DNA of 50,373 nucleotides, taken from contig JAJYNO010000036.1 in the NCBI GenBank assembly GCA_021786295.1, positions 1 through 50,373 of the forward strand, written 5' to 3'. A program made the position numbers and the translations under genes. The notes beneath the pieces were generated by a model. It had not been told where the DNA came from. It saw only the letters and a list, made by a program, of their open reading frames with translations, and ran no database searches. This DNA is from a bacterium (GTDB taxonomy: Bacteria; Elusimicrobiota; Elusimicrobia; Elusimicrobiales; UBA9959). Below, one piece after another: positions 867-14,875 of this stretch (positions are counted from its first letter, which is position 1; each line of letters starts with the position of its first letter).

Positions 867-970
867 GCAGTCCAGGAAGAGCCAGTGCCGGAGCTCGGCC
901 ATTTTCGCAGTACCCCCCCTATCCGTACAATTTCCCGTAACTTTTGTTCTGGGCTTGATATCGGTGAGCT

Positions 971-1003
971 TTTCATTTGAGAATAAGTATTTCATTTGAA
1001 AAT
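971..1003 (+). promoter_or_regulatory. Paired palindromic sites, candidate enhancer for sigma-54 activator
   Basis: Two copies of a 12-bp near-palindrome lie here: TTTCATTTGAGA at 971-982 and the perfect form TTTCATTTGAAA at 990-1001, with starts 19 bp apart. They sit about 125-155 bp upstream of the start predicted from the -24/-12 promoter at 1101-1116, a usual distance for enhancer-binding-protein sites. The same pair arrangement (TTTCCCTTGAGA at 11408, TTTCAAATGAAA at 11428, 20 bp apart) precedes the other sigma-54 promoter at 11496. Binding by the activator encoded at 10046-11404 is inference. Confidence 0.6.
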
Positions 1004-1100
1004 GACTCTCCGGTTTTTCTGGCCTTTTTCTCTTACTTCCATTACGGTCTCCACCGGTATCGGTGATCGGCATAAAATTGAATGTCTAGGGGTTAAGTGT

Positions 1101-1116
1101 TGGCATAAAAAATGCT
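1101..1116 (+). promoter_or_regulatory. Sigma-54 (-24/-12) promoter of the precursor-peptide genes
   Basis: TGGCATAAAAAATGCT matches the -24/-12 consensus TGGCAC-N5-TTGCW, with GG and GC ten bases apart. Transcription should begin near 1127, giving a 5' leader of about 41 nt before the first precursor ATG at 1168. The same 16-mer precedes the sigma-54-like gene at 11554. The remaining part of the 301-bp gap 867-1167 holds the paired palindromes and no supported gene. Confidence 0.85.
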
Positions 1117-1167
1117 CTGTATGGGGTGAAGGTGTCGGAGAAGCAAAACAAAAGGAGAAACGAAAAA

Positions 1168-1266
1168 ATGAACAAGATACTGGAACTGCAGAAGGTGGAG
1201 ACCCCGGAGACCGCGTCCGTGACCAGGGAATGGAGCACGATCAGCAATACCTGCAACAATGGCTGA
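1168..1266 (+). CDS. lanA1: Class III lanthipeptide precursor, copy 1
   Basis: A 32-residue peptide, probably ribosomally made and then modified by the LanKC synthetase at 2351. The leader (about residues 1-21) carries ILELQ at 4-8, matching the hydrophobic leader-binding motif of class III lanthipeptides. The short core begins near Trp22 and contains S23-T-I-S26-N-T-C29, i.e. S-x2-S-x2-C, the spacing used to form labionin or lanthionine rings. A strong ribosome site AAAGGAG lies at 1151-1157. It is the first gene after the sigma-54 promoter. Copy 2 follows 142 nt later with four residue differences. The assignment rests on the motifs and the adjacent LanKC; the cleavage site and ring type are unknown. 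Confidence 0.85.
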   Translation: MNKILELQKVETPETASVTREWSTISNTCNNG

Positions 1267-1309
1267 TCCCGGCGAAGTTGGACCATACACTATATAAGGA
1301 GACAAGAAA

Positions 1310-1408
1310 ATGAACGAGATACTGGAACTGCAGAAGGTGGAGACCCCGGAGACCGCGACCGTGACCAGGGACTGGAGCACGATCAGCAATACCTGCAACA
1401 ACCACTGA
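1310..1408 (+). CDS. lanA2: Class III lanthipeptide precursor, copy 2
   Basis: A 32-residue near-duplicate of the gene at 1168, differing at K3E, S17T, E21D and G32H (six base changes in 96). The ILELQ leader motif and the S23-x2-S26-x2-C29 core are unchanged, so both peptides should be modified alike and differ only at the last residue (Gly or His) and at the leader/core border. It has its own ribosome site, TAAGGAG at 1296-1302. The identical core and nearly identical leader indicate a recent tandem duplication. No third copy or remnant was seen in the 110 nt that follow. Confidence 0.85.
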   Translation: MNEILELQKVETPETATVTRDWSTISNTCNNH

Positions 1409-1480
1409 GCGGGTGCTTCTATCGAAGCCGCGGTCGGTGCGGCGCGGGATCGGCAACATCGGGATGGCCGCGGTTCTTGG

Positions 1481-1486
1481 TAGAAT
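1481..1486 (+). promoter_or_regulatory. Possible -10 element (TAGAAT) for the DUF4097-like gene
   Basis: TTGGTAGAAT resembles a -10 hexamer and lies 32 nt upstream of the start at 1519. The same GGTAGAAT string occurs before the genes at 21933 and 34010. No convincing -35 box is seen. It suggests the secreted protein can be transcribed apart from the sigma-54 promoter. Confidence 0.35.
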
Positions 1487-1518
1487 CTGTTTAAGCAAAA
1501 AGTAATCAGGGGAACATT

Positions 1519-2274
1519 ATGATGATCAAAAGCGGTATTTTCGTGGGAATGATGGTCGCTCTGTGCTCAGCGGGGGCTGCGGCGGGCGGGACTTTCCCGG
1601 CCGAGGGGCTTTCCGGGGTTTTCGTCAGTGCCGGCGGCGGGCAGATATCCGTCGAAGGCGCGGCGGGAGGTTCGGTGGAGGTCTCTCCTCTGAAAGCGGA
1701 CGGGGTCTGCGAAGTGCGGGCGAAGGTGGTTGGCAAGGAACTGCGGATAACAAAACAGAAAGGCAAGGATGGCGCCGTAAGCGACTGCCTGATAAAACTA
1801 CCGGCAAAACTGGCGCTGAAAGTGAAGATGGGCGCCGGCGACCTGGAGGTGAAGGGGCTTTCCGGCCCTGTCGCCATACACAAGACGGTCGGGAAGACTT
1901 CTCTGTCCGGCCTTACCGGCGACCTGAAGGTGGACATGGTCTCCGGCAGCCTGAGTGGGACGATAAATCCCTCCGAACTCTCCATCACCGGCACGGGCGG
2001 CCGGGTGGATCTTTCAGGGCTTGGCTGCGGCGTGTCCGTGCAGCGGGTCACCGGCGGGCTGGCCCTGGCGTGGGCGTCGCCACCGTCCTCGGAGGTGCGG
2101 ATAAAGTCCGCCGGCGGCAAGGTGCGGCTCGCCTTCCCCGCCGACGCTAAGATCTCCACCGAGCTGAAGACCAAGGAGAACGGCAGGATTCACGACGAAT
2201 TCGGGAAGGGCGCCGGCACGCTGGTGGCGGTCACCCTCTCGGGCGGCAGCGTGGACGTTGTAAAAGCGAAGTGA
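1519..2274 (+). CDS. Secreted DUF4097-like beta-repeat protein
   Basis: A 251-residue exported protein of unknown function lying between the lanthipeptide precursors and the synthetase. It has a signal peptide (about residues 1-22, ending in a GAAAGG stretch). The rest consists of glycine-rich beta-strand repeats such as GDLEVKGLSGPVAIHKTVGK and GDLKVDMVSGSLSG. This is the look of DUF4097/head-GIN-type beta-helix proteins. A ribosome site GGGGAA precedes the double ATG. A short secreted ORF at 12651 shares its TFPA-x-G beginning and may be a truncated paralogue. A role in producer self-protection or at the cell surface would fit its position but is a guess. Confidence 0.65.
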   Translation: MMIKSGIFVGMMVALCSAGAAAGGTFPAEGLSGVFVSAGGGQISVEGAAGGSVEVSPLKADGVCEVRAKVVGKELRITKQKGKDGAVSDCLIKLPAKLALKVKMGAGDLEVKGLSGPVAIHKTVGKTSLSGLTGDLKVDMVSGSLSGTINPSELSITGTGGRVDLSGLGCGVSVQRVTGGLALAWASPPSSEVRIKSAGGKVRLAFPADAKISTELKTKENGRIHDEFGKGAGTLVAVTLSGGSVDVVKAK

Positions 2275-2284
2275 ACCGGCGTAT

Positions 2285-2314
2285 CGCCGGCCCCGGGTCT
2301 GGATGGGGCCGGCG
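2285..2314 (+). other. Hairpin between the secreted protein and lanKC
   Basis: A 10-bp perfect stem (CGCCGGCCCC / GGGGCCGGCG) with a 10-nt loop stands in the 76-nt gap. There is no U-run after it, so it is not a classical terminator. It could modulate the amount of lanKC message or protect upstream mRNA. Confidence 0.4.
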
Positions 2315-2350
2315 GCGGACCGCGGGAACGGACTTCCGGCGGCTTGAACT

Positions 2351-5020
2351 ATGAAGAAAGACACCCGCGCGCTTCAACCCTACATGGTGGCCGACGAACG
2401 GTATTACGACACTATGGACCGTTACAAGTTCGCCGAAGGCGACTTCCGCGGAGTGGCGGAGCCGCTGCTGGACGGCGGCTGGAAGCTGGCGCGCAAAGGG
2501 GTCTGGCTGAACTGCCTGCCGGAGGGGGCGGAACTGCCGCTGCAGGGATGGAAGATCCATCTCTCTGCCCGCCGCAAGGACGCGGCGGAAATACTCCGGC
2601 TGGCGGCGGGCGTGCTGGTCCCGCTCAGGGTCCCTTTCAAATTCCTGCTGGACGGCAGGGTGCTGTCGCTGGCCAACTCCAAGTCGTGGGGACGCGGCGG
2701 GGCGGGTAAGTTCATTACGGTGTACCCGTCTGGCGAGGGGCAGTTCCAGGAACTGCTGGAAGCTCTCGGCCGGGCCACAGCTTCGTTCAGCGGTCCTTAC
2801 ATCCTTTCCGACCGAAGGTATAAGGACTACAAGGTGGTGTTCTACCGCTACGGCGGCATAAAGCTCAACACCGTGCTTGAACCGGACGGCCAGAGGACGC
2901 CGGTGCTGGTGTCGCCTTCCGGCAGCAAGGTGCCTGACGTGCGCGCCCCGTATTTCGTTCTGCCGCAGTGGGTGAAGGACATCTCCGAGGCGGAAAAGAG
3001 CGACGGGGAAGGGCTTAACGGCGGCCGCTACAAGGTTCAGAGCTCCTTGGGTTTTTCCAATTCCGGCGGCGTGTACCTGGCCCTGGACGGCTCGACCGGA
3101 CGGAAGGTGGTGATAAAAGAGGCGCGGCCCTGGGTGAACGAGGACGGCCGCGGGCAGGACATGGTGAGCCTGCTCCGCAAGGAGCACAGTATCCTTGAGA
3201 AGATCTCGGACCTGGATATAGCTCCCCGGCCGGTAGAATTGTTCAGGCAGTGGGAGCACACCTTCCTGGTGCAGGAATATCTGGAGAAGCATATCCCGCT
3301 GGGAAAATGGGCCGCCGGCAACGATATAGTGCTGCGCACCAGGTTCACGCGCTCCAGTGCAAGGGAGTTCTTCCGCGAATACGCGGCAATATTCGGCCGT
3401 CTCGCCGGGGTGATAGAAAAGCTGCACGGCCGCGGCGTCGTCTTCGGGGATTTCTCCGCCAACAACATAATGCTGGAGCCGGGTTCGCTGGACATAAAGC
3501 TCATAGATTTCGAGGGCGCGCGGGAGGAGGGTAAGGAGGGGCCGGCCTGGTTCTTCACCCCGGGGTTCTCCGACCCGGCCCGTCCGCACGGCAAGCCCCT
3601 GTCGTTCGAAGACGACTACTACGCTTTCGGAGCGAACATGCTTTATGCGCTGATGCGGGTGGGGCAGATGTCGCAGCTTATTCCGGAGGCGCCGCGGCGC
3701 TGGCTGGACAGCCTGGTAGAGGAGTTCGGTTTCCCGGCGGAACTGCGCTCGGCGGTAACCTCGCTCATGCATCCGGACCCGGCGGCGCGGCCGCGGCCGC
3801 TGGAAGCGCTGGCTCCGCTGGCCGCCGCGGTGGACGCCATGCCGGAAGGCGGCGATCCGGTTAGGCTCGCGCTGGAACCGCGGCCGGCCGGCCATTACGG
3901 CGGCCTCGCGGCCCGGATAGCCGCGCAGCTGGGCGGGGCCGCTGACACGGGCCGCGCCGACAGGCTGTGGCCTTCGCAGCCCGAAGTGTACGAGACCAAT
4001 CCGCTCTGCGTAGCCTGGGGCGCCGCCGGGGTGCTCAAGACGCTGCACCAGGCCGCGCCTGAGAAAGTGTCGCGGGAGATGCTGGACTGGGTGCTGAAAA
4101 AGGAAGTGCGGCCGGAGGATTATCCGCCCGGGCTGTATTTCGGCATAAGCGGCATAGCCTGGACCCTGCTGGACATGGGTTTCGAGCGGGAAGCGGCGGA
4201 CATTTTCTCCCGGGCCGACGGGCATCCGCTGCTGTATTCTTCCCATGACCTGTTCTCCGGCGCGGCGGGCTGGGGCATGACGAACCTGCGCTTCTGGCGC
4301 GGCAACGGGGGGCGTAAATATTTGGACCGGGCCGTGGAGTGCGGAGAAAAGCTGGTCGCCTCCGCCAGCGAGGAGGCCGGGAAGATGTTCTGGCGGACCG
4401 CGGCCAAAGCGGTCCCGCTGGGCCTAGGCGCAGGGGCCGCAGGGGTCGCCGTGTTCCTGGCTTATCTCGCCAAGGCAACTGGCGGCGCGGCATACGCCGC
4501 CGCGGCGGAGAAGGCGCTGGCGCACGATCTGTCGTACGGAGTGCGGTCGCCCGACGGCGGGCTAAGCTGGCCCGCCAGCGCTGCGCCCGAAGAGGCCCTG
4601 CTGCCGTACTTCGAGGCAGGCGGCGCCGGGGTAGGCGCGGCCTGCCTGCGCCTCTGGAAGCTCACCGGCAAGCGGGAATATCTCGACGAAACGGAAAAGA
4701 TATACATCGACTGCGACAGGCTTTACACGGTCTACCCGGGCCGCGACAACGGCCTTGCCGGGCTGGGAGAGTTCCTGCTGGACGCCCACCAGTTCACAGG
4801 AGAAAATAAGTATAGGGAAGCCGCCTGTAAAGTGGCCGCAGGCCTGGAAAAATTCGCAGTCAGGGAAGGGGACGGCCTGCTCTTTCCAGGGAACGGGCTT
4901 TTGCGGTTCAGCTGCGACTACGCCACCGGCTCCGCCGGGATCTGCGCCTTCCTCCACAGGCTGGAGAGCGGCCGCGGCGCCGATTATATGCTGGACGGGC
5001 TGCTGGAAGACAAAAAATGA
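2351..5020 (+). CDS. lanKC: Class III lanthionine synthetase (lyase-kinase-cyclase)
   Basis: An 889-residue enzyme expected to phosphorylate and dehydrate Ser/Thr of the two precursors and close thioether rings. The N-terminal lyase part (about 1-200) has the family signature GRGGAGKFITVYP near residue 113. The kinase part (about 220-490) shows a glycine loop LGFSNSGGVYLA near 232, the ATP lysine in VIKEA, a catalytic loop GDFSANNIM near 367, and DFE in place of DFG. The C-terminal LanC-like part (about 510-889) keeps the GxxG repeats but lacks zinc ligands: EAGGAG and CDYATGSAG stand where WCxG and CHG would be. That separates it from class IV LanL. Its stop overlaps the exporter start (ATGA). 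No strong ribosome site is seen before 2351. Confidence 0.92.
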   Translation: MKKDTRALQPYMVADERYYDTMDRYKFAEGDFRGVAEPLLDGGWKLARKGVWLNCLPEGAELPLQGWKIHLSARRKDAAEILRLAAGVLVPLRVPFKFLLDGRVLSLANSKSWGRGGAGKFITVYPSGEGQFQELLEALGRATASFSGPYILSDRRYKDYKVVFYRYGGIKLNTVLEPDGQRTPVLVSPSGSKVPDVRAPYFVLPQWVKDISEAEKSDGEGLNGGRYKVQSSLGFSNSGGVYLALDGSTGRKVVIKEARPWVNEDGRGQDMVSLLRKEHSILEKISDLDIAPRPVELFRQWEHTFLVQEYLEKHIPLGKWAAGNDIVLRTRFTRSSAREFFREYAAIFGRLAGVIEKLHGRGVVFGDFSANNIMLEPGSLDIKLIDFEGAREEGKEGPAWFFTPGFSDPARPHGKPLSFEDDYYAFGANMLYALMRVGQMSQLIPEAPRRWLDSLVEEFGFPAELRSAVTSLMHPDPAARPRPLEALAPLAAAVDAMPEGGDPVRLALEPRPAGHYGGLAARIAAQLGGAADTGRADRLWPSQPEVYETNPLCVAWGAAGVLKTLHQAAPEKVSREMLDWVLKKEVRPEDYPPGLYFGISGIAWTLLDMGFEREAADIFSRADGHPLLYSSHDLFSGAAGWGMTNLRFWRGNGGRKYLDRAVECGEKLVASASEEAGKMFWRTAAKAVPLGLGAGAAGVAVFLAYLAKATGGAAYAAAAEKALAHDLSYGVRSPDGGLSWPASAAPEEALLPYFEAGGAGVGAACLRLWKLTGKREYLDETEKIYIDCDRLYTVYPGRDNGLAGLGEFLLDAHQFTGENKYREAACKVAAGLEKFAVREGDGLLFPGNGLLRFSCDYATGSAGICAFLHRLESGRGADYMLDGLLEDKK

Positions 5021-6564
5021 GAACACTGCGCAAATTCGCCGGCGTAATAGGAGCCCATCGCGGAAAATATCTGTTGCTGCTGGCCTGTTCTGCGTTCCTT
5101 AACGCGTTCATGGCGGTGGCGAACCCGCTGCTGCTGAAGTACCTCTTCGACCAGGGCGTGATAAAGAAGGATTTCCGTCTTTTCATCGGGCTGGCGGTCG
5201 GTTTCATCCTTCTGGCCACGCTCTGGCGTTTCCTCAGCCTGAAGCTTTCCCTCGGAGTGCAGCGCCTGAAGAACGCCCTGCTGCGCTCGCTTTCGGTCCG
5301 GTTGCTTTCTGAGTACTACGCTATCCCGTACGGGAGCGTGCTCTCGAAGCCGAAAGGCTATTTCGCTTCAAGGATCTACGACGAGCCGGCCGCTGCGGCG
5401 AATTCCGCCGTAGATCTCGGCTTCAACCTGACAGGCTCGCTGGTGAACTCGGTCGCCGCGTTCTGTCTGATAGTCACCATTTCGCCGAAGGCCACCGCCG
5501 CGCTGGCCCTGACGGTCCCCGCCCTGGTGCTGCTTTCCAAACGCTTCAGCGGCCGCATCAAAAAGCATTCCAGCGACGAGAAGGAGGAGGAGGGCCTGCT
5601 GCGCGGGGTGCTGGCCAGGGCCGCGGAAGCCTACCGCACGGTGCGCGTTTTCGGGCTTCAGGAACGGGCGAGCAGAAAACTGCAGGAGCAGACCGGGAAG
5701 TTCGTGGACAGCCAGTACCTGCGGTTCAGCAGCAGCGCGCTTTACGGGACGCTGGCCTCGGTGCTGGCCTCTTACGCCGAGACCCTGGTGATCATAGTCT
5801 GCGGCTACGAGATGCTCCAGGGCGCTATGACGTTCGGCGGGTTCATGGCCTTTATGAACGCCTTCTGGATAGCCATGGGCGGGGTGCGCGGTCTGATAAA
5901 CAAGGTGCCGGAGATCTCCAGGACGGAGGCGGTGCTGGACCGCATGGCCGAGTTCTTCAGGCCCGCTCCCGCTCCGGCGCGCGCCGGTTCCGGCGGCATT
6001 TCTTTCGATGACGTTGATTTCGGGTACGACGGAAAAAAAGTGCTTTCCGGTTTGAGCTTCAGCATAGCGCCGGGACGCAGGATGCTGGTCTCCGGCGGCA
6101 ACGGCTGCGGCAAGTCGACACTGGCCGGACTGGTGTACGGTTTTCTGGACCCGGATTCCGGAAAAGTTTCGTCCTTCGCGCCTGCCGCGATAAGCGCCTG
6201 CATCTCTCCGCACGGTTTCATTCCCGGCACGCTCGGCGACAACCTGGGCTACGACGGACTGGATGAGGAGCGCCGCCGCTATGCGGACCGGCTGCTGGCG
6301 GACCTGGGCATGGCCTCACTGCTGGACAAGGACCCCGAGAGCATGTCGGCCGGGCAGAAGAAGAAAGCCGAGGTGATCATGGGCCTGCTAAAGGAGGCAG
6401 AGCTGTACCTTTTCGACGAGCCCCTGGCCAACGTGGACGTGGACGGCAAGGGCCGCATAATGGAGCACATTTTCGAACGCGCTAAAGGCCGGACGCTGCT
6501 GGTGATAATGCACGGGGACGAGGAATACCGCGCCCGTTTCGACGGGGAGCTGGCGCTTTCTTGA
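5017..6564 (+). CDS. lanT: ABC exporter, fused membrane and ATPase domains, probable LanT
   Basis: A 515-residue half-transporter, likely exporting the modified peptide as a homodimer. Six predicted membrane segments fall in about residues 1-310. The ATPase follows with Walker A GGNGCGKST near 361, signature MSAGQKKK near 443, Walker B LYLFDEP near 465 and the H-loop histidine in IMHGDEE near 498. It has no N-terminal C39 peptidase domain, so it should not remove the leader itself; as in other class III systems a separate protease is needed. The ATGA overlap with lanKC makes co-translation likely and supports the assignment. Confidence 0.85.
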   Translation: MRTLRKFAGVIGAHRGKYLLLLACSAFLNAFMAVANPLLLKYLFDQGVIKKDFRLFIGLAVGFILLATLWRFLSLKLSLGVQRLKNALLRSLSVRLLSEYYAIPYGSVLSKPKGYFASRIYDEPAAAANSAVDLGFNLTGSLVNSVAAFCLIVTISPKATAALALTVPALVLLSKRFSGRIKKHSSDEKEEEGLLRGVLARAAEAYRTVRVFGLQERASRKLQEQTGKFVDSQYLRFSSSALYGTLASVLASYAETLVIIVCGYEMLQGAMTFGGFMAFMNAFWIAMGGVRGLINKVPEISRTEAVLDRMAEFFRPAPAPARAGSGGISFDDVDFGYDGKKVLSGLSFSIAPGRRMLVSGGNGCGKSTLAGLVYGFLDPDSGKVSSFAPAAISACISPHGFIPGTLGDNLGYDGLDEERRRYADRLLADLGMASLLDKDPESMSAGQKKKAEVIMGLLKEAELYLFDEPLANVDVDGKGRIMEHIFERAKGRTLLVIMHGDEEYRARFDGELALS

Positions 6565-6599
6565 ACTGTCCCGAAGCCCTCCCGGCAGATCGCTCTGTC

Positions 6600-6731
6600 T
6601 TAACAAAAGATCAGGGCCAGCATCTCCTTCTTCTCGGCGGCGGAGCAGTCCTTGTAGAGCTCGGCCGCGCTCTTGAGGCTCGAGCACTTGGAGCGCAGGT
6701 CGCGCAGCAGTTTGGAAGTCCCCTCGCTCAT
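6600..6731 (-). pseudogene. Truncated copy of the 58-residue H-box-like small protein
   Basis: A 43-residue ORF nearly identical over residues 6-40 to the 58-residue protein at 9873-10049, with the shared block SKCSSLKSAAELYKDCS. It differs in two telling ways. The candidate phosphoacceptor His10 is Arg (LLRDLRSK). The last 17 residues of the second helix are replaced by IFC and a stop. It follows the permease gene on the same strand after a 119-nt gap and has no obvious promoter. It is most likely a decayed duplicate, although a decoy role cannot be excluded. Confidence 0.6.
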
Positions 6732-6850
6732 TCTTCGTCCACTTTGGCAAGGTGGTTTTCTGCGAAAATAAGAGTCAAAGAGGGGCACGGTGCGGAAAGC
6801 TCGGCCTATGCCTCCAGGCTCTATCAGCTGTAAAGAACGCAAAACAATTC

Positions 6851-8404
6851 TTATGCCGGGAGATGCCCGCCCGGACCTTGCCGGACGGCGCCGCCCCAGG
6901 TTTCTTCGCGGGCCGCGCTGCCGGCGCCCCAGGCGCTCAGCAGCGCCGTGGCTATCGCCATCGCCGCCAACGGGGTCCAGGCCGGTTTGCCCGGTATCAG
7001 CGCGGCCATGATCGTCCAAGAAAGCGTGCTGAACAGTTCGATGAAACCCGCGGGACCGCCAGCCTTCAGCCTGTTCTTCAGGTCGCCGCGCCTGGCCCGC
7101 CGCGGGCTCCAGGCCTGTATCAGCGCGGCCGAAAGCATGGCCCCGGCGCCGCAGAAAAGCAGCGTGGCCGCGGCCGCCGGCCCGCGCCGCGCCCACCAGG
7201 CGGCCAGCGGCAGCAGGAGGCAAAGCACCGGCAGCACGGCTGCCGCGGCCTTTAGCCACAGGACCCGCGGCAGCGGGACCGGGGAGGAGGAGATCAGCTC
7301 CGGGGCGTCCTCCGCGTTCACGGTTATCCAGGCCAGGCTGCCTGTCAGCATGCCGGCGGCCGCCACCAGCCCGGGTACCAGCATAAAATTACCGGGGCCG
7401 GACTTGAAACCCATGAAGATCATGGGCGCCAGGTAGAGCAGCTGCAGCAGCGACTGCGAGATGACCTGCATGTCCCGCAGTATCAGGCGCCATTCCTTGA
7501 GCAGCAGCACGCGGGAGAGTCCGGGGCGGAACACGGGCCCGCCTGCCCCGGCCGCGGCGGCGGCCGTAGTGCCGCCGGAGACGGATTCCTGCGTGCCCGA
7601 CACGAAACTCCGGTAAGCGATGTTCACGGCCAGCCAGAAGAGGCCCGCCCCGGCCGCGGCCACGGCCAGCAGCGGCAGCGGCTCGCCGTACATGGCGCGC
7701 ACTGGCCACCACAGCGGGCTAGCCGGCCCCAGCGCGCCGCCGGAGAAAGCTCCGTTCTTCAGCCACAGCACCAGCGAGGCCTTCTGCGCCTCCGTCAGGG
7801 CCCGCGGCAGCTGGAAGGCCAGGAAGAACGCCGCGCCGGAGCAGGCTCCGATGACCTGGCCCGCGGTCCTGGCGCGGCGCGCGCCGAGCAGGCGCACCAG
7901 CGCCATCATTATGGCCAGCCCGGCGGCCGCGCAGCCGAGCGCGGCGGCGGCCAGTACGGGGTAGATGGCGATGAAGCCGGGATAGCCGCGCAGCGGCCCG
8001 ACATGCGCCAGCGGCAGCAGCGCGAAGCCGGGCAGCAGCGCCGCGCTGAGCGCTATCGAAAGGGCGCGGACCAGGAAAATGTCGCGCTGGGGCATGGGGG
8101 AGGAAAGCAGCAGGTCCAGGTCGCCGCGCGTGACGAAAGCGTTCACCGAATGCAGTATGGCCTGCGACAGCATCAGCGAGGCCAGCATCCAGAACAGCGC
8201 GCCGGGGACCATGGGCGCCGCCCGCATGCCGTCGATGAGCCCGCGCATTGCGGGCAGCGCGGTCCAGGCGCCCCAGTGCATGAGCAGCCAGAGCAGGGCG
8301 CCGAAGGCGGAGAGCACTTTCAGGTGGCTGCCGCTGGCGCCGCGCCAGCTGAGGCGCATCTCGTTGCGCAGCAGCCAGAGCCAGGTTCCGGGCGCCGGCT
8401 TCAT
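6851..8404 (-). CDS. ABC-2-type transporter permease
   Basis: A 517-residue membrane protein with roughly ten or more hydrophobic segments, forming the channel for the ATPase encoded just upstream at 8401-9210 (4-nt ATGA overlap). The segment order, a long N-terminal block and a conserved short cytoplasmic stretch (LLLKEWRLILRDMQVISQSL), is typical of large ABC-2 permeases. Because the pair is driven by its own sigma-54 promoter inside the lanthipeptide locus, it may serve as LanFEG-like self-immunity or as a second exporter. The substrate cannot be read from the sequence. Confidence 0.75.
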   Translation of the reverse strand: MKPAPGTWLWLLRNEMRLSWRGASGSHLKVLSAFGALLWLLMHWGAWTALPAMRGLIDGMRAAPMVPGALFWMLASLMLSQAILHSVNAFVTRGDLDLLLSSPMPQRDIFLVRALSIALSAALLPGFALLPLAHVGPLRGYPGFIAIYPVLAAAALGCAAAGLAIMMALVRLLGARRARTAGQVIGACSGAAFFLAFQLPRALTEAQKASLVLWLKNGAFSGGALGPASPLWWPVRAMYGEPLPLLAVAAAGAGLFWLAVNIAYRSFVSGTQESVSGGTTAAAAAGAGGPVFRPGLSRVLLLKEWRLILRDMQVISQSLLQLLYLAPMIFMGFKSGPGNFMLVPGLVAAAGMLTGSLAWITVNAEDAPELISSSPVPLPRVLWLKAAAAVLPVLCLLLPLAAWWARRGPAAAATLLFCGAGAMLSAALIQAWSPRRARRGDLKNRLKAGGPAGFIELFSTLSWTIMAALIPGKPAWTPLAAMAIATALLSAWGAGSAAREETWGGAVRQGPGGHLPA

Positions 8405-9210
8405 GACGGCTCCGTCAGCTGCAGGAAGACGTCCTCGAGAGTGCCGGAATTCCCTCCGACGGAGGCCCCCGCCCGGGAGCGCAGCTCCTCCAGCGTGCCC
8501 TGCGCTATTATTCGGCCGCCGAGGATGATGCTGATGCGCTCGGCCAGGCGCTCCGCGATCTCCAGGATGTGCGTGGTAAGGAGCACGCTGTTGCCGCGCT
8601 TCACGTAATCCGCCAGCATGTCCTTTACCGACCGCGCGGCGCGGGCGTCGAGACCGGTCAGCGGTTCGTCCAGGACCATCAGCCGCGGCCCGTGTATCAT
8701 GGCTCCCGCCAGGGCGAGCTTCTGGCGCATGCCGCGCGAAAATCCCTCGGTGTACTGCGAACGGTTATCCCAGAGCTCCAGCCATTCCAGCAGCTCTTTG
8801 GCGCGGGAGGCGGCGGTCCCGGCCGGGACTCCCCAGAGGCCCGCCACGAATTCAAGGTATTCCAGCGGCGTCAGCTTGCCGTAGAGCAGCGGGTCGTCCG
8901 GCAAAAAAGCCGTAGCGCGCTTGGCTTCGGCGGGGCGGGCCGCATTGTCATGGCCGTAGATGGAGACCGAGCCGGCATCCGGCCTGAGCAGGCCGGCCAC
9001 CATCCTCAGCGTCGTGGTCTTGCCGGCGCCGTTCGGGCCCAGCAGGGCGTGGAACTCTCCGGCCGGGACCTCCAGATCGAGGCCGTCCACCGCCCGCTTG
9101 TCGCCAAAGTTCTTGGCCAGGCCGCGTATGCTCAGGGCAGCGCCCTTCTCCTTTGCGGTCCCTTCCTCTGATCCGGCTAAAAGTCCGTTAGTGTGAGTGG
9201 CATTGGTCAT
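8401..9210 (-). CDS. ABC transporter ATP-binding protein
   Basis: A 269-residue ATPase powering the permease at 6851-8404. Walker A is GPNGAGKTT, the signature is FSRGMRQKLALAGA, Walker B is LMVLDEPLTGLD and the H-loop is LLTTHILE. The C-terminal tail is short. The start is uncertain. The sigma-54 promoter at 9222-9237 predicts transcription from about 9211, so longer forms from 9219 or 9264 are unlikely. ATG 9210 would then be almost leaderless, and a downstream non-ATG start after AAGGAG is also conceivable. The immunity or export role in the lanthipeptide locus is inferred from position and shared regulation. Confidence 0.85.
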   Translation of the reverse strand: MTNATHTNGLLAGSEEGTAKEKGAALSIRGLAKNFGDKRAVDGLDLEVPAGEFHALLGPNGAGKTTTLRMVAGLLRPDAGSVSIYGHDNAARPAEAKRATAFLPDDPLLYGKLTPLEYLEFVAGLWGVPAGTAASRAKELLEWLELWDNRSQYTEGFSRGMRQKLALAGAMIHGPRLMVLDEPLTGLDARAARSVKDMLADYVKRGNSVLLTTHILEIAERLAERISIILGGRIIAQGTLEELRSRAGASVGGNSGTLEDVFLQLTEPS

Positions 9211-9221
9211 GTCGAACATAT

Positions 9222-9237
9222 AGCAATTTATATGCCA
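9222..9237 (-). promoter_or_regulatory. Sigma-54 promoter for the ABC-2 transporter operon
   Basis: On the minus strand TGGCATATAAATTGCT is a near-perfect -24/-12 element (GG, ten bases, GC). It points at the ATPase gene with a predicted start near 9211. It stands back to back with the plus-strand promoter at 9259-9274, only about 21 bp apart, so one activator could serve both directions. Confidence 0.8.
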
Positions 9238-9258
9238 AAAATGTGCGGATATTATCTG

Positions 9259-9274
9259 CGGCACATAAATTGCT
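9259..9274 (+). promoter_or_regulatory. Sigma-54 promoter for the secreted anchored protein
   Basis: CGGCACATAAATTGCT fits TGGCAC-N5-TTGCW with a single mismatch outside the invariant GG/GC. The predicted start near 9285 leaves a 54-nt leader before ATG 9339, containing a GGGCCG/CGGCCC hairpin (9290-9313) and the ribosome site AAGGAG. No TTTCATTTGAAA palindrome was found near this divergent pair. Confidence 0.82.
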
Positions 9275-9338
9275 CTGTATCGGTCAAGCGGGCCGGCTGG
9301 GGGTAGGCGGCCCGCCCTGGATATAAGGAGATACGGAG

Positions 9339-9863
9339 ATGAGGAACTTGTTCGGAGGTTTGGTTTTCGGCGCGGCCGTGCTGGCCGGGCTTTCTCTGCC
9401 GGCTGCGGCTCAAGGCTATGTGAACATCAGGCCGTCGTTCGGCGCGGACGGCGGGTGCGAGGGGGGCCTCGGCGCGGCCGCCGAAAGGATACGGGCCGCG
9501 GTGGATGCGGGGGACAACGCCGGGGCGGAGGCTTCGCTGTCGGCGGTGTTCTCCGGCGTCGGCGTAAAAGGTGAGGCGGTCCCGGTATATTTAACCGCGC
9601 GTCCGGAGGCGCAGGCGAGGGCGGCGGCGCCGGTCCCGGTCCTGGTGCCGGCGGCGCCGGCGGCCGGGGGGGCCCATAATAAGCCGCCGCCTGCGGCCGA
9701 CGACGACGAGTCTGCCGCCCCGGACGACGCCAAGCCGGCCGACAGCAATCCGGCCGCATCCGGGAAGGCCGACGGCGGCGACAAGAAAAAGCCGCCGCTC
9801 TGGCAGGGCTTCCTGGCCGGCTGCCTGGGCATACTGGTGGTGATGATCTTTATCTGCCTGTAG
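9339..9863 (+). CDS. Secreted protein with Ala/Pro-rich linker and C-terminal membrane anchor
   Basis: A 174-residue protein of unrecognised family. It has a signal peptide (about 1-24, LSLPAAAQG cleavage region), a small folded segment (about 25-85) with one cysteine, and a long low-complexity Ala/Pro/Asp linker (about 88-150). A basic KKKPPLWQ stretch precedes one C-terminal membrane helix (about 156-174). This layout would hold the small domain in the periplasm tethered to the inner membrane. Its sigma-54 promoter and position between the ABC-2 transporter and the regulator suggest a part in the lanthipeptide response, possibly sensing or immunity; that is inference. Confidence 0.6.
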   Translation: MRNLFGGLVFGAAVLAGLSLPAAAQGYVNIRPSFGADGGCEGGLGAAAERIRAAVDAGDNAGAEASLSAVFSGVGVKGEAVPVYLTARPEAQARAAAPVPVLVPAAPAAGGAHNKPPPAADDDESAAPDDAKPADSNPAASGKADGGDKKKPPLWQGFLAGCLGILVVMIFICL

Positions 9864-9872
9864 TCCGGGCGT

Positions 9873-10049
9873 TCAGGACTGCGACAGCTGGGCGAGTATC
9901 TTAGTTATCTCGGCCGCGGCGGAGTTCATCAGGGCGAGCATCTCCTTCTTCTCGGCGGGAGAGCAGTCCTTGTAGAGCTCGGCCGCGCTCTTGAGGCTGG
10001 AGCACTTGGAGCGCAGGTCGTGCAGAAGTTTTGAATTCTCTTCGGTCAT
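9873..10049 (-). CDS. 58-residue helical protein resembling a stand-alone histidine-kinase H-box hairpin
   Basis: A small protein translationally coupled to the sigma-54 activator upstream: the activator's TGA overlaps this ATG as ATGA. It is predicted all-helical. Residues 8-25 (LLHDLRSKCSSLKSAAEL) look like the H-box of a HisKA domain, with His10 in the phosphoacceptor place, and residues 31-56 could form the second hairpin helix. There is no ATP-binding domain. If the reading is right, it could act as a phosphotransfer or docking partner of the receiver domain. The usual proline of the H-box is Lys15, so caution is needed. Two cysteines (16, 29) are conserved in the truncated copy at 6600. 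Confidence 0.55.
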   Translation of the reverse strand: MTEENSKLLHDLRSKCSSLKSAAELYKDCSPAEKKEMLALMNSAAAEITKILAQLSQS

Positions 10050-11404
10050 TTCTTGTCCCCCTTGGTGTCCAGCCCCAACTTCTTAAGCGTCGAATAGAGA
10101 AGGCGCGTGGAGATCTTCAGGTCCGTCATGGTCTTGGTGCGCACGCCGCCGTTCTCGTTCAGGTTGCGGGCTATCATCTCGTCGGAAACCTTGGCCAGCG
10201 CGGCCTCCAGGCCGTGCTCCAGCGCGTACCGGTAAAGCCCGTCGTCGCCGGCCCGCGGCTCCTGGCCGCCCGCCGCCGCGGCCTCGCCCCGCAGGTGCTT
10301 CTTCGCCTCCTCCAGGCCCACGCGGCCGTCCGAGCCGCTGGAGAGCAGGTCCGTGAACTTCTTGAGCTCGCGCACATTGCCGGGCCAGGCGTAGGACTCC
10401 ATGAAGGCCTTGGCCTCCCGCGTGAACGAGAGGCGCCTGCCGCTCCTGGTGAAGTGCAGCATCAGCGGGGCTATGTCACCGGGCCGGCGGCTGAGCGGCT
10501 TCAGGTTTATAGTGTAGCCGTGCACGCGCTGGAACAGGTCGAAGCGCATCTTGCCCTGCGCTATCAGCTTCTGCGGGTCCTCGAGCGTGGCGCTGATGAT
10601 GCGGAAATCCGAGCGTTCCGGCTTGTCGGAGCCGAGCGGGTGGAAAATGCGCTCCTCTATGGCCTTCAGCAGCTTCATCTGCATGTTCGGGCTCATCGTG
10701 CCGATCTCGTCGAGGAACAGCGTGCCCTTGTGCGCCTCGAGCAGGCGGCCCTTGCGGCTGTCGGCGGCTCCGGTGAACGCGCCCTTGCGGTAGCCGAACA
10801 GCTCCGCCTCCAGCAGGTCCTCGGTGTAGGCCGAACAGTTGATGGAGACGAAGGCGCCGGGGCGGCCGGAGTGGTCGTGCAGGATGTTGGCCAGCGAGGT
10901 CTTGCCGGTGCCCGAGGGTCCGAGTATCATTATCGGCAGGTCGGTGGGCGCGTACTTGAGCGCCTCGGTCACCATGGCCCGGGTCTCCGGGTCCTGCGTG
11001 ATGAAGGCCGAGGTGAAGATGTCCGCCGCGGCGGCCGCCTTGCGCCCCGCCGCGAACTTGCGCAGGATGTCCGCCACGTTGGACTCCTCGTTGCCCTTGG
11101 CGTAGAAGTCCCGCGCGCCCAGCTCGTAGGCGCGGTCTATGATCTCCTCGGAGTCGGAGCTGGAGACCACCACGCAGTAAATGCCCTTCTCCGCGGCCGC
11201 GGCTATGGCCTTGAGGCCCGAGTGGTCGTCCTCCGGGCCGAGCATCAGGTCGAAGAAGCCGATGTCGTACCGGCCGGTCTCTATCTTCTTGAGCACGGTC
11301 TTCAGGTCGCCGGCCGTGTCGGTGTTGTGCTCCGCCAGCTGCATGGTCATTATCTTCTGAGCCAGCCTGTCGTCGTCCAGCACCAGGATATTGAGCTTTT
11401 CCAT
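10046..11404 (-). CDS. Sigma-54-dependent response regulator (NtrC family)
   Basis: A 452-residue enhancer-binding activator. The receiver domain (about 1-125) has acidic DDD at 10-12, phosphoacceptor Asp52 in FFDLML and the conserved lysine in YAKG. The AAA+ domain (about 135-370) has Walker A GPSGTGKT, the sigma-54-contacting GAFTGA loop near 206, Walker [10 protein letters not shown] and an arginine-finger region. A FIS-type helix-turn-helix closes the protein ([15 protein letters not shown]). The start at 11404 is chosen for its ribosome site AAGGGAAA. It is divergent from the sigma-54-like gene at 11554 and is the natural activator of the locus. No full sensor kinase is present in the window. 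Confidence 0.92.
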
Positions 11405-11407
11405 TAT

Positions 11408-11439
11408 TTTCCCTTGAGAAAGACTATTTTCAAATGAAA
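11408..11439. promoter_or_regulatory. Second pair of palindromic activator-like sites
   Basis: TTTCCCTTGAGA (11408-11419) and TTTCAAATGAAA (11428-11439, the exact reverse complement of the copy at 990) lie 20 bp apart in the divergent region between activator and sigma factor. They are 57-88 bp upstream of the -24/-12 promoter at 11496. The first site overlaps the activator's ribosome site, so bound activator might also limit its own expression. Function is inferred from recurrence at two sigma-54 promoters. Confidence 0.55.
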
Positions 11440-11495
11440 GAGGCAACCCCTGTGGGTATTATAGCGAAAATCTGGGGGCGTGGAGCGTTGAGTAT

Positions 11496-11511
11496 TGGCA
11501 TAAAAAATGCT
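11496..11511 (+). promoter_or_regulatory. Sigma-54 promoter of the sigma-54-like gene
   Basis: TGGCATAAAAAATGCT is identical over 16 bases to the promoter of the precursor peptides at 1101. The predicted start near 11522 gives a 32-nt leader before ATG 11554. The sigma-54-like gene would thus be under sigma-54 control itself, a possible positive feedback loop. Confidence 0.85.
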
Positions 11512-11553
11512 CTTATATCTGCGACAGTTGATATTTAAGGAACGGGGTCGGCA

Positions 11554-12615
11554 ATGAAACACGGATTCAAGCTTAATCTTTCCACCGGGGCGCGCACTTC
11601 GGCCGCGCTGCTGGGCGCGCTGAAGATGGCGCATATGGCGTCCATGAGCGAGGAGGATTTCTCCAAGTTCTTGAAAGAACTGGAGGGCGGCCGCGTTTTC
11701 CAGCTCCTTAAGAGCTCCGGCGCCATCAACCTGAGCGAATTTCCCTCCGCCCGCTACGCCGCGCGCAAGTACGCCGGCTGCGGCCTCAGGCAGACCGCCG
11801 GCTCCCTGCCGGAGCTGGCCGACGGCGCGGGCGACCTGGTGGCCCTGATGCAGGGCATAGGGCCTGAGAAGTTCGAGGCCTGCTTCCTGCGCGACGCCGC
11901 GATGAGCGACGTGGAGCGCGCCGAGGCCTGCGACATCAGCGTCAAGGACGCGGAGCGCCTGCGCGATTTCGTCAACCGCGCCTTCATCCAGGAGGAGACC
12001 TCTCAGGGTTCGCTCAGTACCGAGGCGCCCGCCGCCGCCGTCTACAGCGCGGTGGCCGGCATAGAGATAGTGGACGGGGAGCCCGAGCTGGCCTTCTTCA
12101 ACCGCGAGGTCTGGAAAGGCCGTTACAAGATCGACAGTGAGAAGCTGGCCCAGCTGCTGCCCGGGCTGGACCCGGCCGAGCGCCGCCGCGCAGAGAACAC
12201 GCTGAAGAAGCTGGAGTTCGCCGACAAGCGCAAGACCACCCTTTACCGCGCGCTGGAGCTGCTGCTCAGCGTGCAGACGGATTACCTTGTCACCGGAGAG
12301 CCCGGCCGCCGCCGCCCGCTGTCGCAGAAGACGCTGGCCAAGAACCTCGAGGTGGACCCCAGCGTCCTCAACCGCCTTATTTCCAACAAGTCCATCCAGA
12401 TGCCGTGGGGCCTGGAGGCGCCTATGGAGGTGCTGCTGCCCAGCTCCAAGAAGGTGAACCTGGAGCGCCTCTACGCCATCGCGGCCGAGAACCCGAGCTT
12501 GAGCGACGAGAAGCTGCGCGCGGAGCTGCGCTTCCGCCACGGCGTGGACCTCAGCCGCCGCTCCATCGCCCAGTACCGCCAGGACCTGCGCCTGGCCGCC
12601 GCCGGCTCCCGGTAG
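11554..12615 (+). CDS. Divergent, short sigma-54 (RpoN-like) factor
   Basis: A 353-residue protein aligning with sigma-54 by motif order. A degenerate region I (about 1-45) lacks the usual glutamines, and a core-binding part follows. Then comes the TLYRALELLLSVQTDYLVTG stretch typical of the centre. A helix-turn-helix ends in NKSIQMPWG (compare NKYxQxPxG). The RpoN box SRRSIAQYRQ is at 334-343, against the usual ARRTVAKYRE. Ordinary RpoN is about 430-500 residues, so linker regions are missing. Its place beside the activator and behind a sigma-54 promoter suggests a sigma factor dedicated to this locus. Whether a standard rpoN exists elsewhere is unknown. Confidence 0.8.
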   Translation: MKHGFKLNLSTGARTSAALLGALKMAHMASMSEEDFSKFLKELEGGRVFQLLKSSGAINLSEFPSARYAARKYAGCGLRQTAGSLPELADGAGDLVALMQGIGPEKFEACFLRDAAMSDVERAEACDISVKDAERLRDFVNRAFIQEETSQGSLSTEAPAAAVYSAVAGIEIVDGEPELAFFNREVWKGRYKIDSEKLAQLLPGLDPAERRRAENTLKKLEFADKRKTTLYRALELLLSVQTDYLVTGEPGRRRPLSQKTLAKNLEVDPSVLNRLISNKSIQMPWGLEAPMEVLLPSSKKVNLERLYAIAAENPSLSDEKLRAELRFRHGVDLSRRSIAQYRQDLRLAAAGSR

Positions 12616-12650
12616 CGGATGGTCGTGCCGGACTATATTCTGGAGGAAAA

Positions 12651-12848
12651 ATTAAGATACTTGCGGCAGTGTTGACCGTGGCGGCTTTGGGCGCTTCGCG
12701 GCCGTGTTCCGCGCAGGAAGTCAAAACTTTTCCCGCCGCCGGGATCGGTAGTATACATGCTGGCACGGAATCGGGCTTCATAACAGAGGCTCCCGGTTCC
12801 ATGCCGCTGAAGCTGGGATCGGCCTCCGGGAACGTGGGCGCGGCCTGA
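12651..12848 (+). pseudogene. Short secreted ORF with ATT start, likely truncated DUF4097-like paralogue
   Basis: A strong ribosome site GGAGG (12642-12646) is followed by ATT AAG ATA CTT. Read from ATT as an initiator it gives 65 residues with a clear signal peptide (KILAAVLTVAALGASRPCSA). After cleavage it begins EVKTFPAAGIGSI, resembling TFPAEGLSGV of the secreted protein at 1519, then ends early. ATT is a rare start known from infC. This could be a short functional secreted protein or the remnant of a duplicated gene. No ATG in frame fits the signal peptide. Confidence 0.45.
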
Positions 12849-12892: not shown

Positions 12893-14875
12893 ATGAAAAC
12901 CCTTTACGCGCTCCTTTCGCTTTTACTGGTCCGGCCCTCTTTCGCCGCGGAGCCTGTCGCTCCAGCGGACCCGTGCACGGACTTCTATCGGTACGCCTGC
13001 GGTTCCTGGCTGGCCGCAAACCCTGTGCCGCCGGACCAGTCGCAGTGGGGCCGGTTCAGCGAGCTGGCCGAGCGCAATCGCGCGGTCCTGAGGGGGATAC
13101 TGCAGAAGGCCTCCGACGCCTCTGCGGCGCGCTCCCCGGACGAAGTCAAACTGGGGGATTACTACTCCTCCTGTATGGACGAGAAGGCCGTGGACGCGCT
13201 GGGGGCGGAGCCGATAAAGGGTTACCTGGAAGAGATAGCCGCGCTGAAGAGCGCGGAGGAACTGCCCGGAGAGATCTCCCGGCTGTACGCCGCCGGTATC
13301 CCCGCCTTCTTCTATTTCGGCTCCGAGCAGGACTATAAGGACGCCGGCAGCATGATAGCGGCGATAGGCCAGGGCGGCCTCGGCCTTCCGGACAAGGACT
13401 ATTATCTGCGCATGGACTCGGACTCGGCGGAGCTCCGCGGCAAGTATGAGGAGCACGTCCGCAGGATGTTCGCGCTGGCCGGCTACGACGAAGCCGCCTC
13501 CTCCGCGGCCGCGGCGGCGGTGATGCGCGTGGAGACTGCGCTGGCGGAGGCCTCGATGGACAGGGTGACCCGCCGGAACCCGGAGAAGACCTACCATAAA
13601 ATGACGCCCTCCGAGCTGAAGGCGCTGGCCCCCGAGCTGGACTGGCGCGGCTTCTTCTCAGCGGTGAAGGCGCCCGAGATAAAGTACATCAACGTAGAGT
13701 CGCCCGACTTCCTGAAAAAAGCGGCGGCCATGCTGCGTGGGACGCCGCTGGCGGACTGGAAGACCTACCTGAGCTGGCGGGTGCTCAACGGCAGCGCTTC
13801 CCTGCTCTCCAAGCCTTTCGTGGACGAGGACTTCGCCTTCTACGGCAGGACGCTCAGCGGGGCCAGGGAACTGCGCCCGCGCTGGAAACGCTGCGTGGAC
13901 TACGCCAACTCCGGTCTGGGCTTCCTGCTGGGCAAGCGCTACGTGGCGGAGGAGTTCAGCCCCGCCGATAAGACCGCGGCCGGGGAGATGATAGCCGGCA
14001 TAGAGAAGGCCCTGGCCGGCGACATAGACAGCCGGGACTGGATGTCGCCCGCCACGCGCGAGCTGGCCCAAAAGAAGCTGGCGGAAGTGGATAACAAGAT
14101 AGGCTACCCCGATAGATGGCGCGACTATTCCGCGCTGGAGGTGAAACCGGGCGACTGGTTCGGCGACCACCGGCGCGCCGCGCTGTTCGAGATGCACCGC
14201 GACCTCAATAAGATCGGCAAGCCGGTGGACAGGAGCGAGTGGGAGATGACCCCGCCCACCGTCAACGCCTATTACGATCCGTCGATGAACACTATCAACT
14301 TCCCGGCCGGCATACTCCAGCCGCCGTTCTACCGGGCCGGGGGCGACCCGGCCATGAACTACGGCGCGATAGGGGCCGTGATGGGCCACGAACTGACGCA
14401 CGGCTTCGACGACCAGGGGCGAAAATTCGACGGGAAGGGCAACATGACGGACTGGTGGACGAGGTCCGACGCCGAGGCCTTCGACAGGCGCAGCGAGTGC
14501 TTCGTCGACGAGTATTCCAGTTTCACCGTGGCCGGCGGGCTGCACGTTAACGGCAAGCTGACGCTGGGGGAAGATACCGCCGACAACGGCGGCCTGCGTC
14601 TGGCGCTGATGGCGCTGGAGAACGGCTCCTTCCTTAAAGCCGGCGGTCTGCGGGACGGGCATACTCCGGAGCAGCGCTTCTTCCTGGGCTGGGCCGGAGT
14701 CTGGTGCACCAACTACACCGACGCCTATATAAAGCTGCTGGTCCTGACGGACCCGCACCCGCCGGCGCAGGACCGCGTCAACGGCGTGCTGATAAACATG
14801 CCGGAGTTCGCCAGGGCCTACGGCTGTAAAGCCGGCAGTCCGATGACCGCGACGCACCCCTGCCGCGTCTGGTAA
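12893..14875 (+). CDS. M13 family zinc metallopeptidase (neprilysin/PepO-like)
   Basis: A 660-residue secreted endopeptidase cutting oligopeptides in the periplasm or outside. It has a signal peptide (about 1-19). The zinc site HELTH lies near residue 499 with the third ligand in GEDTADNGG near 560. The substrate-groove motif NAYYDPSMNTINFPAG is present, and the family's CxxW ending appears as CRVW. The start lacks a ribosome site but begins a good signal peptide. It adjoins the lanthipeptide locus, whose exporter has no protease domain, so this enzyme is one candidate for trimming exported leader peptides. That link is only positional. Confidence 0.9.
   Translation: MKTLYALLSLLLVRPSFAAEPVAPADPCTDFYRYACGSWLAANPVPPDQSQWGRFSELAERNRAVLRGILQKASDASAARSPDEVKLGDYYSSCMDEKAVDALGAEPIKGYLEEIAALKSAEELPGEISRLYAAGIPAFFYFGSEQDYKDAGSMIAAIGQGGLGLPDKDYYLRMDSDSAELRGKYEEHVRRMFALAGYDEAASSAAAAAVMRVETALAEASMDRVTRRNPEKTYHKMTPSELKALAPELDWRGFFSAVKAPEIKYINVESPDFLKKAAAMLRGTPLADWKTYLSWRVLNGSASLLSKPFVDEDFAFYGRTLSGARELRPRWKRCVDYANSGLGFLLGKRYVAEEFSPADKTAAGEMIAGIEKALAGDIDSRDWMSPATRELAQKKLAEVDNKIGYPDRWRDYSALEVKPGDWFGDHRRAALFEMHRDLNKIGKPVDRSEWEMTPPTVNAYYDPSMNTINFPAGILQPPFYRAGGDPAMNYGAIGAVMGHELTHGFDDQGRKFDGKGNMTDWWTRSDAEAFDRRSECFVDEYSSFTVAGGLHVNGKLTLGEDTADNGGLRLALMALENGSFLKAGGLRDGHTPEQRFFLGWAGVWCTNYTDAYIKLLVLTDPHPPAQDRVNGVLINMPEFARAYGCKAGSPMTATHPCRVW

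Follow-up and report, generated by a model that had tools for sequence, protein, structure and literature searches.

Why does a class III lanthipeptide gene set lie against the genes for a sigma-54 activator and a paralog of sigma-54, and do these regulators control it? The question is raised by positions 971..12848 of the 50,373-base stretch of DNA analyzed here (contig JAJYNO010000036.1 of an Elusimicrobiota genome; hereafter, the window). The locus comprises two precursor genes, a gene for the synthetase LanKC, a coupled exporter gene, an ATP-binding cassette (ABC)-2-like pair, a gene for a response regulator of the bacterial enhancer-binding protein (bEBP) type and a gene for the sigma-54 paralog, all of which the initial annotation of the window had identified and placed correctly. 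It had overlooked an enhancer, a gene for a 58-amino acid HisKA-like protein (mini-HisKA) and a hybrid kinase. The evidence makes it likely that the lanthipeptide set is under an autoregulated sigma-54 switch that is found family-wide, is probably fed by a phosphorelay and serves several classes of ribosomally synthesized and post-translationally modified peptides (RiPPs).

Enhancer and Promoters of the Locus

The strongest evidence for common control is a palindrome, TTTTCAWWTGAAAA, which is often paired at a distance of ~20 bp and lies ~95-115 bp upstream of -24/-12 sites. A motif search found one pair, predicted to be likely activator sites, before the precursor genes (970..1002; TTTTCATTTGAGAA at 970 and ATTTCATTTGAAAA at 989). 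Another copy lies at 11427..11440, in the intergenic region from which the activator and sigma genes diverge, accompanied by a poorer match at 11407 (3 mismatches). The exact core, TTTCAWWTGAAA, occurs at only three places in the 2.3-Mb genome: before the precursors (C1:990, i.e., 990-1001 of the window), between activator and sigma (C1:11428) and before a second, radical S-adenosylmethionine (SAM) RiPP locus on another contig (C20:4887). That the three belong to one regulon is well supported, as far as sequence can tell. Places with one mismatch that lie at -24/-12 sites are C1:971, C20:4867, C20:11100 and C34:30481.

The palindrome was also counted (≤2 mismatches) around 109 distinct -24/-12 sites with scores of at least 22, taken from all fetched loci except eight duplicates. 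It was found within 260 bp of 60 of them, in two copies at 39, with peaks near -115 and -95; in the controls, 242 of 7,550 positions chosen at random and 81 of 884 gene starts had it. Most of these loci were fetched for holding the module or a maturase, and the rate applies to such DNA, not to whole genomes. Four scrambled palindromes gave 9-17 matches, compared with 125 for the true one. The -24/-12 element is near-invariant: the 60 enhancer-bearing sites have TGGCATAAAAATTGCTCTGTA in common, a likeness partly imposed by the scan. The palindromes are likely to be the binding sites of the activator.

The promoters themselves were located by a weighted GG-N10-GC scan over the whole window with a threshold score of 22. 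The best four sites, 9238-, 1100+, 11495+ and 9258+, are the four named in the initial annotation; they are also the only native sites at or above the threshold, and the reversed sequence has none. The site at 1100..1116 (+; TTGGCATAAAAAATGCT) would serve the precursor operon and that at 11495..11511 (+) the sigma gene itself, i.e., autoregulation. The remaining two form a divergent pair, one directed toward the ABC-2 pair (9222..9238, -) and the other toward a gene for a secreted protein (9258..9274, +). The own-genome pattern TGGCAYNNNNNWTGCT, which has 8 matches, 3 of them in this locus, compared with 1 in the reversed control, fits all but the 9258+ site.

Lanthipeptide Genes and Their Relatives

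LanKC (2351..5020, +) is, by its domain and curated-family scores, a class III lanthionine synthetase: it scores 748.1 bits on the class III model NF038151 (cut-off 575) and 605.9 bits, under the cut-off of 650, on the class IV model NF038150, and is composed of lyase (RamC_N), kinase and LanC-like domains. Its best solved relatives include the LanKC entries 8sao, 8sap and 8sam and SalKC 9ugq. Zinc ligands of lanthipeptide cyclases are marked by the motifs Cys-His-Gly and Trp-Cys-x-Gly, neither of which was found in LanKC of the window or of its two closest relatives (loci L033 and L034). The two precursors (1168..1266 and 1310..1408, both +), each of 32 amino acids with an S-x2-S-x2-C core, fit MN[KE]ILELQKVETPETA..W-S-T-I-S-N-T-C-N-N-[GH] and score 23.4 and 24.0 bits, respectively, on NF038159, under its cut-off of 30. 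The gene for the ABC exporter, with its transmembrane and nucleotide-binding domains (5017..6564, +), overlaps lanKC by 4 nucleotides.

Of the 340 phylum genomes searched, four have a lanKC match at E ≤ 1e-60. In a first search with the family, 150 of 198 genomes gave a match at E ≤ 0.001, almost always through kinase domains; one of the 198 was above the cut-off. LanKC of L033 and L034 are 67 and 58% identical to that of the window, and at both loci precursors, LanKC, exporter, mini-HisKA, activator and sigma follow in the same order between different flanks, so that cassette and module recur together, as a search for the gene order in relatives had been proposed to establish. Sigma and activator (75-77%) are more conserved there than LanKC, and the ABC-2 pair was not found at either locus. 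The fourth lanKC, 44% identical, comes from another genus (genome G287) and lies on a 5.7-kb contig, on which two precursors (..SWISNSC.. and ..SWISNCC..) stand behind an enhancer pair and a -24/-12 promoter, and lanKC is followed by an exporter of the same type (51% identical). All 10 precursors of the four lanKC loci (2, 2, 4 and 2) have an LQK-type leader and a Ser-x2-Ser-x(2-5)-Cys core, in which the spacer before Cys is x2 at three loci and x3 in L034.

At all four lanKC loci the precursors are preceded by a -24/-12 site that is accompanied by two copies of the enhancer (≤2 mismatches), and the sigma/activator pair adjoins lanKC at three of them. The pair was not found on the 5.7-kb contig of G287, which has two sigma copies elsewhere; no lanKC genome without the sigma was seen among the four. 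The linkage into one regulon that the initial annotation had proposed for all four promoters is supported for the lanKC set with its sigma-54 circuit, with the qualification that no enhancer was found at the divergent 9238-/9258+ pair.

The Sigma-54 Module in the Phylum

The sigma protein matched 142 of 340 phylum genomes at E ≤ 0.001, in three identity bands among the matches listed: 34 full-length close copies (at least 63% identity) in 31 genomes, all within the family of the source genome; a middle band of ~40-53%, mostly from other families of the class; and other sigma-54s at ~30% and less. The activator was found in 28, and mini-HisKA in 25, of the 31 close sigma loci fetched. Upstream DNA of sufficient length was available for 31 close sigma genes; a -24/-12 site precedes 21 of them, together with an enhancer in 20, and positive feedback of sigma on itself is therefore likely in most of these loci, although not in all. 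No match was seen, among those listed, in a sister family, which fits the report that Elusimicrobium minutum is without sigma-54 (PMC3162934).

As 27 of the 31 close-sigma genomes have no lanKC match, a circuit specific to lanthipeptides was rejected as an explanation. The circuit had initially been described as dedicated to the lanthipeptide, which 34 close sigma copies in 31 genomes, against lanKC in four, do not support. The claim that the locus is self-contained is not supported either: the same enhancer and promoter precede the radical-SAM RiPP locus elsewhere in the genome, and gene maps, inspected by eye, often place the module amid shared housekeeping genes, at many loci without a RiPP gene in the DNA fetched.

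At that second locus (C20) were found, one after another, a gene of the hybrid kinase, an enhancer pair, a 17-mer promoter identical to that of the precursors, a gene for a Cys-bearing peptide of 29 amino acids (MDKKIIYQAPDFEVIDVSGCMSTMRDLEN) and a radical-SAM gene; the peptide and the radical-SAM motif were read by eye, and the SPASM match is by profile. This RiPP-like locus (L121:3499-4716 and 10531-11979) includes radical-SAM genes, a major facilitator superfamily (MFS)-like protein and a divergent promoter pair at ~11.0-11.2 kb near genes for a 62-amino acid peptide and a secreted protein.

Of the 33 sigma loci examined, 3 encode LanKC and 15 a radical-SAM relative of the cargo maturases (18 in all), and neither was found at the other 15; because the queries came from the same loci, several of which are shorter than 10 kb, this is a count and not a test. 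TIGR04085 gives an approximate independent check: its 196 matches are spread over 31 genomes with a total of ~89 Mb, from which ~1 would be expected in the 0.46 Mb around sigma, and at least 7 were found there among the matches listed (tail probability 8e-5). The cargo varied: Clo7bot/TIGR04463-like radical SAM, an MFS transporter and peptides of 30-44 amino acids (L079, L086 and L098); a TIGR04463/PapB-like protein with a weakly protease-like one (L076 and L094); another radical-SAM type with an ABC-2 transporter and two peptides of 42-43 amino acids (L073); and a YydG-like fragment (L082 and others). The scores are far under the equivalog cut-offs, so that the families named are relatives, not memberships.

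Further observations were made around the sigma genes. Class-level relatives with sigmas of 50-53% (L100 and L102) lie near B12-binding-like radical-SAM genes (by eye) with -24/-12 sites of their own. Open reading frames of 31-33 amino acids are Gly/aromatic-rich between the sigma promoter and sigma in L090, L092, L096 and L098, and encode a one-helix 'YSFIIAAFLSAAL' after sigma in L069 and L072. Secreted proteins resembling DUF4097 recur next to sigma or RiPP cargo (L069, L076, L078-L080, L086 and L098).

Proposed Mechanism and Its Rivals

We propose that the phosphorylated activator would bind the palindromes and remodel RNA polymerase carrying the paralogous sigma, by which precursors, LanKC and exporter would be switched on and sigma raised too, in positive feedback. 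The phosphate would come from the hybrid kinase with its substrate-binding-protein-like partner and would pass to the activator via the 58-amino acid protein as histidine phosphotransferase. LanKC would then form a ring of the (methyl)lanthionine or labionin type on the S-T-I-S-N-T-C stretch, and the modified peptide would be exported by the ABC protein.

Several observations weigh against this sequence-based proposal. Fifty dinucleotide shuffles of the window gave a mean of 1.18 and a maximum of 4 sites at or above the threshold, so that -24/-12 sites alone are modest evidence; the sites of the window are raised above chance by their placement before genes, by the enhancer pair and by recurrence in relatives. 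The enhancer was not found within 4 mismatches at the divergent 9238-/9258+ pair, i.e., at two of the four promoters of the window; in a different genome, the gene of a related ATPase (L129) does carry it. Eight of the 12 one-mismatch places in the genome are away from -24/-12 sites, as far as examined, and no site at threshold precedes 10 of the 31 close sigma genes. Three of the 31 close loci are without the activator, one at a contig end (L088) and two with 14-20 kb of sequence (L093 and L095), and it was not found in L126 either. The points that bear on signal input and on the sigma follow.

Mini-HisKA (9873..10049, -) overlaps the activator gene by 4 nucleotides and would be translationally coupled to it. 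Its His is invariant (28/28), and a helical hairpin is confidently predicted (predicted local distance difference test score, pLDDT, 92.9), of the kind found in dimerization and histidine phosphotransfer (DHp) domains. To the debit of the relay, its HisKA match is weak (E 0.004, under the cut-off), and Foldseek gave nothing at E ≤ 0.001, its top rows being assorted unrelated two-helix hairpins and histidine kinases coming at ranks 23, 30, 43, 46 and 47 with E > 1. Histidine kinases are not among the best 50 VIA rows either, and the fold searches are not diagnostic. The C-terminal, degenerate ATP-binding-like domain of the ChpT/Spo0B type is absent; the protein may act in the same way and is not classed with that type.

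The hybrid kinase, the gene of which lies at the second RiPP locus and beside the module in some relatives, has HisKA and HATPase_c domains by Pfam, HisKA being under the cut-off in the protein of the source genome and above it in L034 and L082. Its tail is receiver-like: in an alignment of 19 sequences, read by eye, Asp, Thr and Lys are conserved. At E ≤ 1e-90 the kinase was found in 31 of 340 genomes; the close sigma is present in 26 of these, and within the 59 family genomes listed the two co-occur (Fisher p 7e-8). This linkage amounts to co-occurrence, for which ancestry and draft genomes are confounders, and it is incomplete: 5 of the 31 kinase genomes are without close sigma and 5 of the 31 sigma genomes without the kinase, 7 of the 31 match in the kinase-receiver half alone (in G057 and G114 the match is cut by a contig end), and no match at this threshold was found in the lanKC relative G272. 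The kinase gene overlaps that of the partner protein in 20 of 22 loci with both. A profile built from 21 partner sequences recovers binding proteins of the NikA/OppA type (best E 9.8e-6); a 3-sequence profile reached E 0.2 or worse, and there is no Pfam match to that family. Peptide may be what partner and kinase sense.

In known relays, a histidine protein has to carry phosphate from a kinase that ends in a receiver to an activator that begins with one (PMC9981736), and mini-HisKA would fit this role by analogy; we therefore infer a phosphorelay. It is a sizeable possibility, if the lesser one, that mini-HisKA instead acts on the bEBP as a phosphatase or a sequestering anti-activator, and that the kinase pairs elsewhere and does not feed the activator. 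The missing ATP-binding domain and weak HisKA match would suit that role, as would the location of kinase and sigma on different contigs in many genomes, that of the window included. Against it stand the invariant His, the co-occurrence of kinase and sigma and the receiver-like end of the kinase, such receivers passing phosphate to a histidine phosphotransferase in multistep relays (PMC9981736).

The activator (10046..11404, -; Response_reg and Sigma54_activat by Pfam) has a receiver, an AAA+ domain and GAFTGA, the last in 29 of 29 sequences; the receiver keeps its Asp in 28 of 29 (one gap), an acidic pair, Ser 81 (29/29) and Lys (29/29). No Pfam match was obtained for a helix-turn-helix family, and the C-terminal tail is Fis-like by eye. 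The sigma paralog (11554..12615, +; Sigma54_DBD by Pfam) has an intact DNA-binding domain and RpoN box, and its profile match in the PDB is confined to the C-terminal part. On the other side of the ledger, Pfam recognized the activator-interacting (AID) and core-binding (CBD) domains in 0 of 28 paralogs, the predicted model is unusable (pLDDT 47), and either sigma-54 of the genome could read these promoters.

The other sigma-54 (on contig C5) may accordingly read the RiPP promoters under this activator, the paralog being a specialized variant, an inhibitor or the sigma of another regulon. Two sigma-54 genes are present in the source genome and in each of the two lanKC relatives, and the unrecognizable AID and CBD would suit such a role. 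We consider this unlikely, since the paralog retains its DNA-binding domain and RpoN box, adjoins the activator in 28 of 31 loci and carries the same enhancer and promoter in 20 of 31, and since the C5 sigma, far diverged from the paralog, has no recognizable AID or CBD either. A plasmid search with the C5 sigma as query for classical rpoN gave no match. A loss of region I from the paralog was entertained and dropped, because the C5 sigma shares the unrecognizable N-terminus and, by eye, a region-I-like spacing is kept in some phylum sigmas; the N-terminal spacing of the paralog itself resembles, by eye, region I in diverged form. In a sigma tree, for which 8 of 23 non-module stretches passed the RpoN-box filter, L180 and L102 represent one gene and fall together, the remaining seven form one group (support 0.999), and L101 (51% sigma) is placed with a support of just 0.506.

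That an ordinary lanthipeptide locus lies by chance beside an unrelated core sigma-54 regulator, the motifs being generic sigma-54 consensus, would agree with the module in 27 genomes without lanKC and with the many fetched loci in which no RiPP gene was found, but is very improbable, given that enhancer copies stand before the precursors in 4/4 lanKC loci and that the exact core is rare in the rest of the genome.

Other Features of the Window

Behind the precursors, a hairpin (1406..1493, +; z -2.35) separates them from the downstream genes and may be a partial terminator; the corresponding z is -5.18 in L125, and no comparable signal was found in L033 (-0.20) or L077 (-0.73). It is followed by a gene for a DUF4097-like secreted protein (1519..2274, +; E 0.0021, weaker than the family cut-off), whose homolog in L033 is 56% identical. 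The gene at 12640..12848 (+) looks degenerate and may be a remnant, by eye like the DUF4097-like gene after sigma in some relatives.

A truncated duplicate of mini-HisKA (6600..6731, -; 89% nucleotide identity over 131 bp) may be a recombination scar. It sits just after the exporter, the place of the intact gene in L033. Most simply, recombination at the mini-HisKA gene would have brought in the lanKC block.

The ABC-2-like permease (6851..8404, -) was named from seven hydrophobic segments and the adjoining DrrA-like ATPase (8401..9219, -; true start uncertain); a family search with it gave no match. The secreted protein at 9339..9863 (+), whose gene converges with those of mini-HisKA and activator, has a hydrophobic N-terminus and a C-terminal tail and resembles a recurrent family behind -24/-12 sites. 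Small secreted proteins like it (L123:2081-2662, L124:5642-6142, L137, L144 and L146) have a loose 'GDN..a..LL..LfsG' motif (by eye) and often an enhancer as well as the -24/-12 site. An M13 peptidase (12893-14875; Pfam M13_N and M13), possibly a leader protease, adjoins the locus; no homolog was found at E ≤ 0.1 in the loci of the two lanKC relatives. Genes for F-type alpha-like (36764-38281) and V/A-type (46707-49903) ATP synthase subunits in the one window suggest two ATP synthases.

Discussion

SapB-like clusters are under RamR-type regulation. The majority of LanKC clusters come from Actinobacteria and Firmicutes (PMC7268733), and the set described here resembles the known class III systems in its three-domain LanKC, short precursors, Ser-x2-Ser-x-Cys core and ABC export. 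It differs in the x2 spacer, in place of x3, at three of four loci and in its sigma-54 control. "Elusimicrob" was not found in the available text of that paper. No open-access paper was found that joins "class III lanthipeptide" with "sigma-54", subscription papers lying mostly outside the search, and a sigma-54-controlled lanthipeptide was not found among the matches listed in wider literature searches; those for Elusimicrobi and lanthipeptide were unrelated by title.

In Myxococcus xanthus, the bEBP response regulator Nla28 exerts sigma-54 control over natural-product genes (PMC7910581). As predicted here, a response-regulator bEBP binds there to sites in tandem that lie upstream of the -24/-12 promoters of biosynthetic genes. 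Nla28 is, by contrast, a starvation regulator of polyketide and non-ribosomal clusters with mostly intragenic promoters, and the module described here adjoins RiPP genes and includes a sigma-54 paralog. Neither lanthipeptide nor bacteriocin was found in the available text of PMC7910581.

A degenerate ATP-binding domain is kept in Spo0B. ChpT likewise keeps one (PMC9981736), whereas the protein here is a 58-amino acid DHp hairpin alone with a sigma-54 activator as output. The proposed relay resembles CckA-ChpT-CtrA and Spo0F-Spo0B (PMC9981736) in that a kinase, predicted to be a hybrid one like CckA, a phosphotransferase of the DHp fold with its conserved His and a response regulator would act in succession. 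Sigma-54 paralogs, some with separate roles, are also known from Rhodobacter and Bradyrhizobium (PMC3162934), and Ralstonia has several rpoN genes too; unlike them, the paralog here is usually paired with one activator, mostly autoregulated and linked to RiPP loci.

Four biosynthetic clusters have been counted in Elusimicrobiota (PMC8692599), which are also listed among the phyla richer in such clusters (PMC11834409). RiPPs in this phylum are not new as such, nor is sigma-54 control of natural-product genes; the components are of known kinds, and their combination is new. As a wider and tentative proposal, to which we would give a little less than an even chance, the lineage may possess a "RiPP operating system", in which a periplasmic peptide-binding-like sensor, a relay from the hybrid kinase through a DHp-only phosphotransferase of 58 residues, a bEBP with its own autoregulated sigma-54 and one enhancer-promoter code would serve exchangeable RiPP clusters, with a collective switch to production on sensing released peptide. 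The cargo chemistries found with the module are class III lanthipeptide and several radical-SAM/SPASM types.

If the proposed switch is real, the 58-amino acid protein would be a very small phosphotransferase, and one 14-bp enhancer code would define a testable regulon in uncultured bacteria, which would aid the finding of short precursors and may point to the signal that activates silent RiPP clusters.

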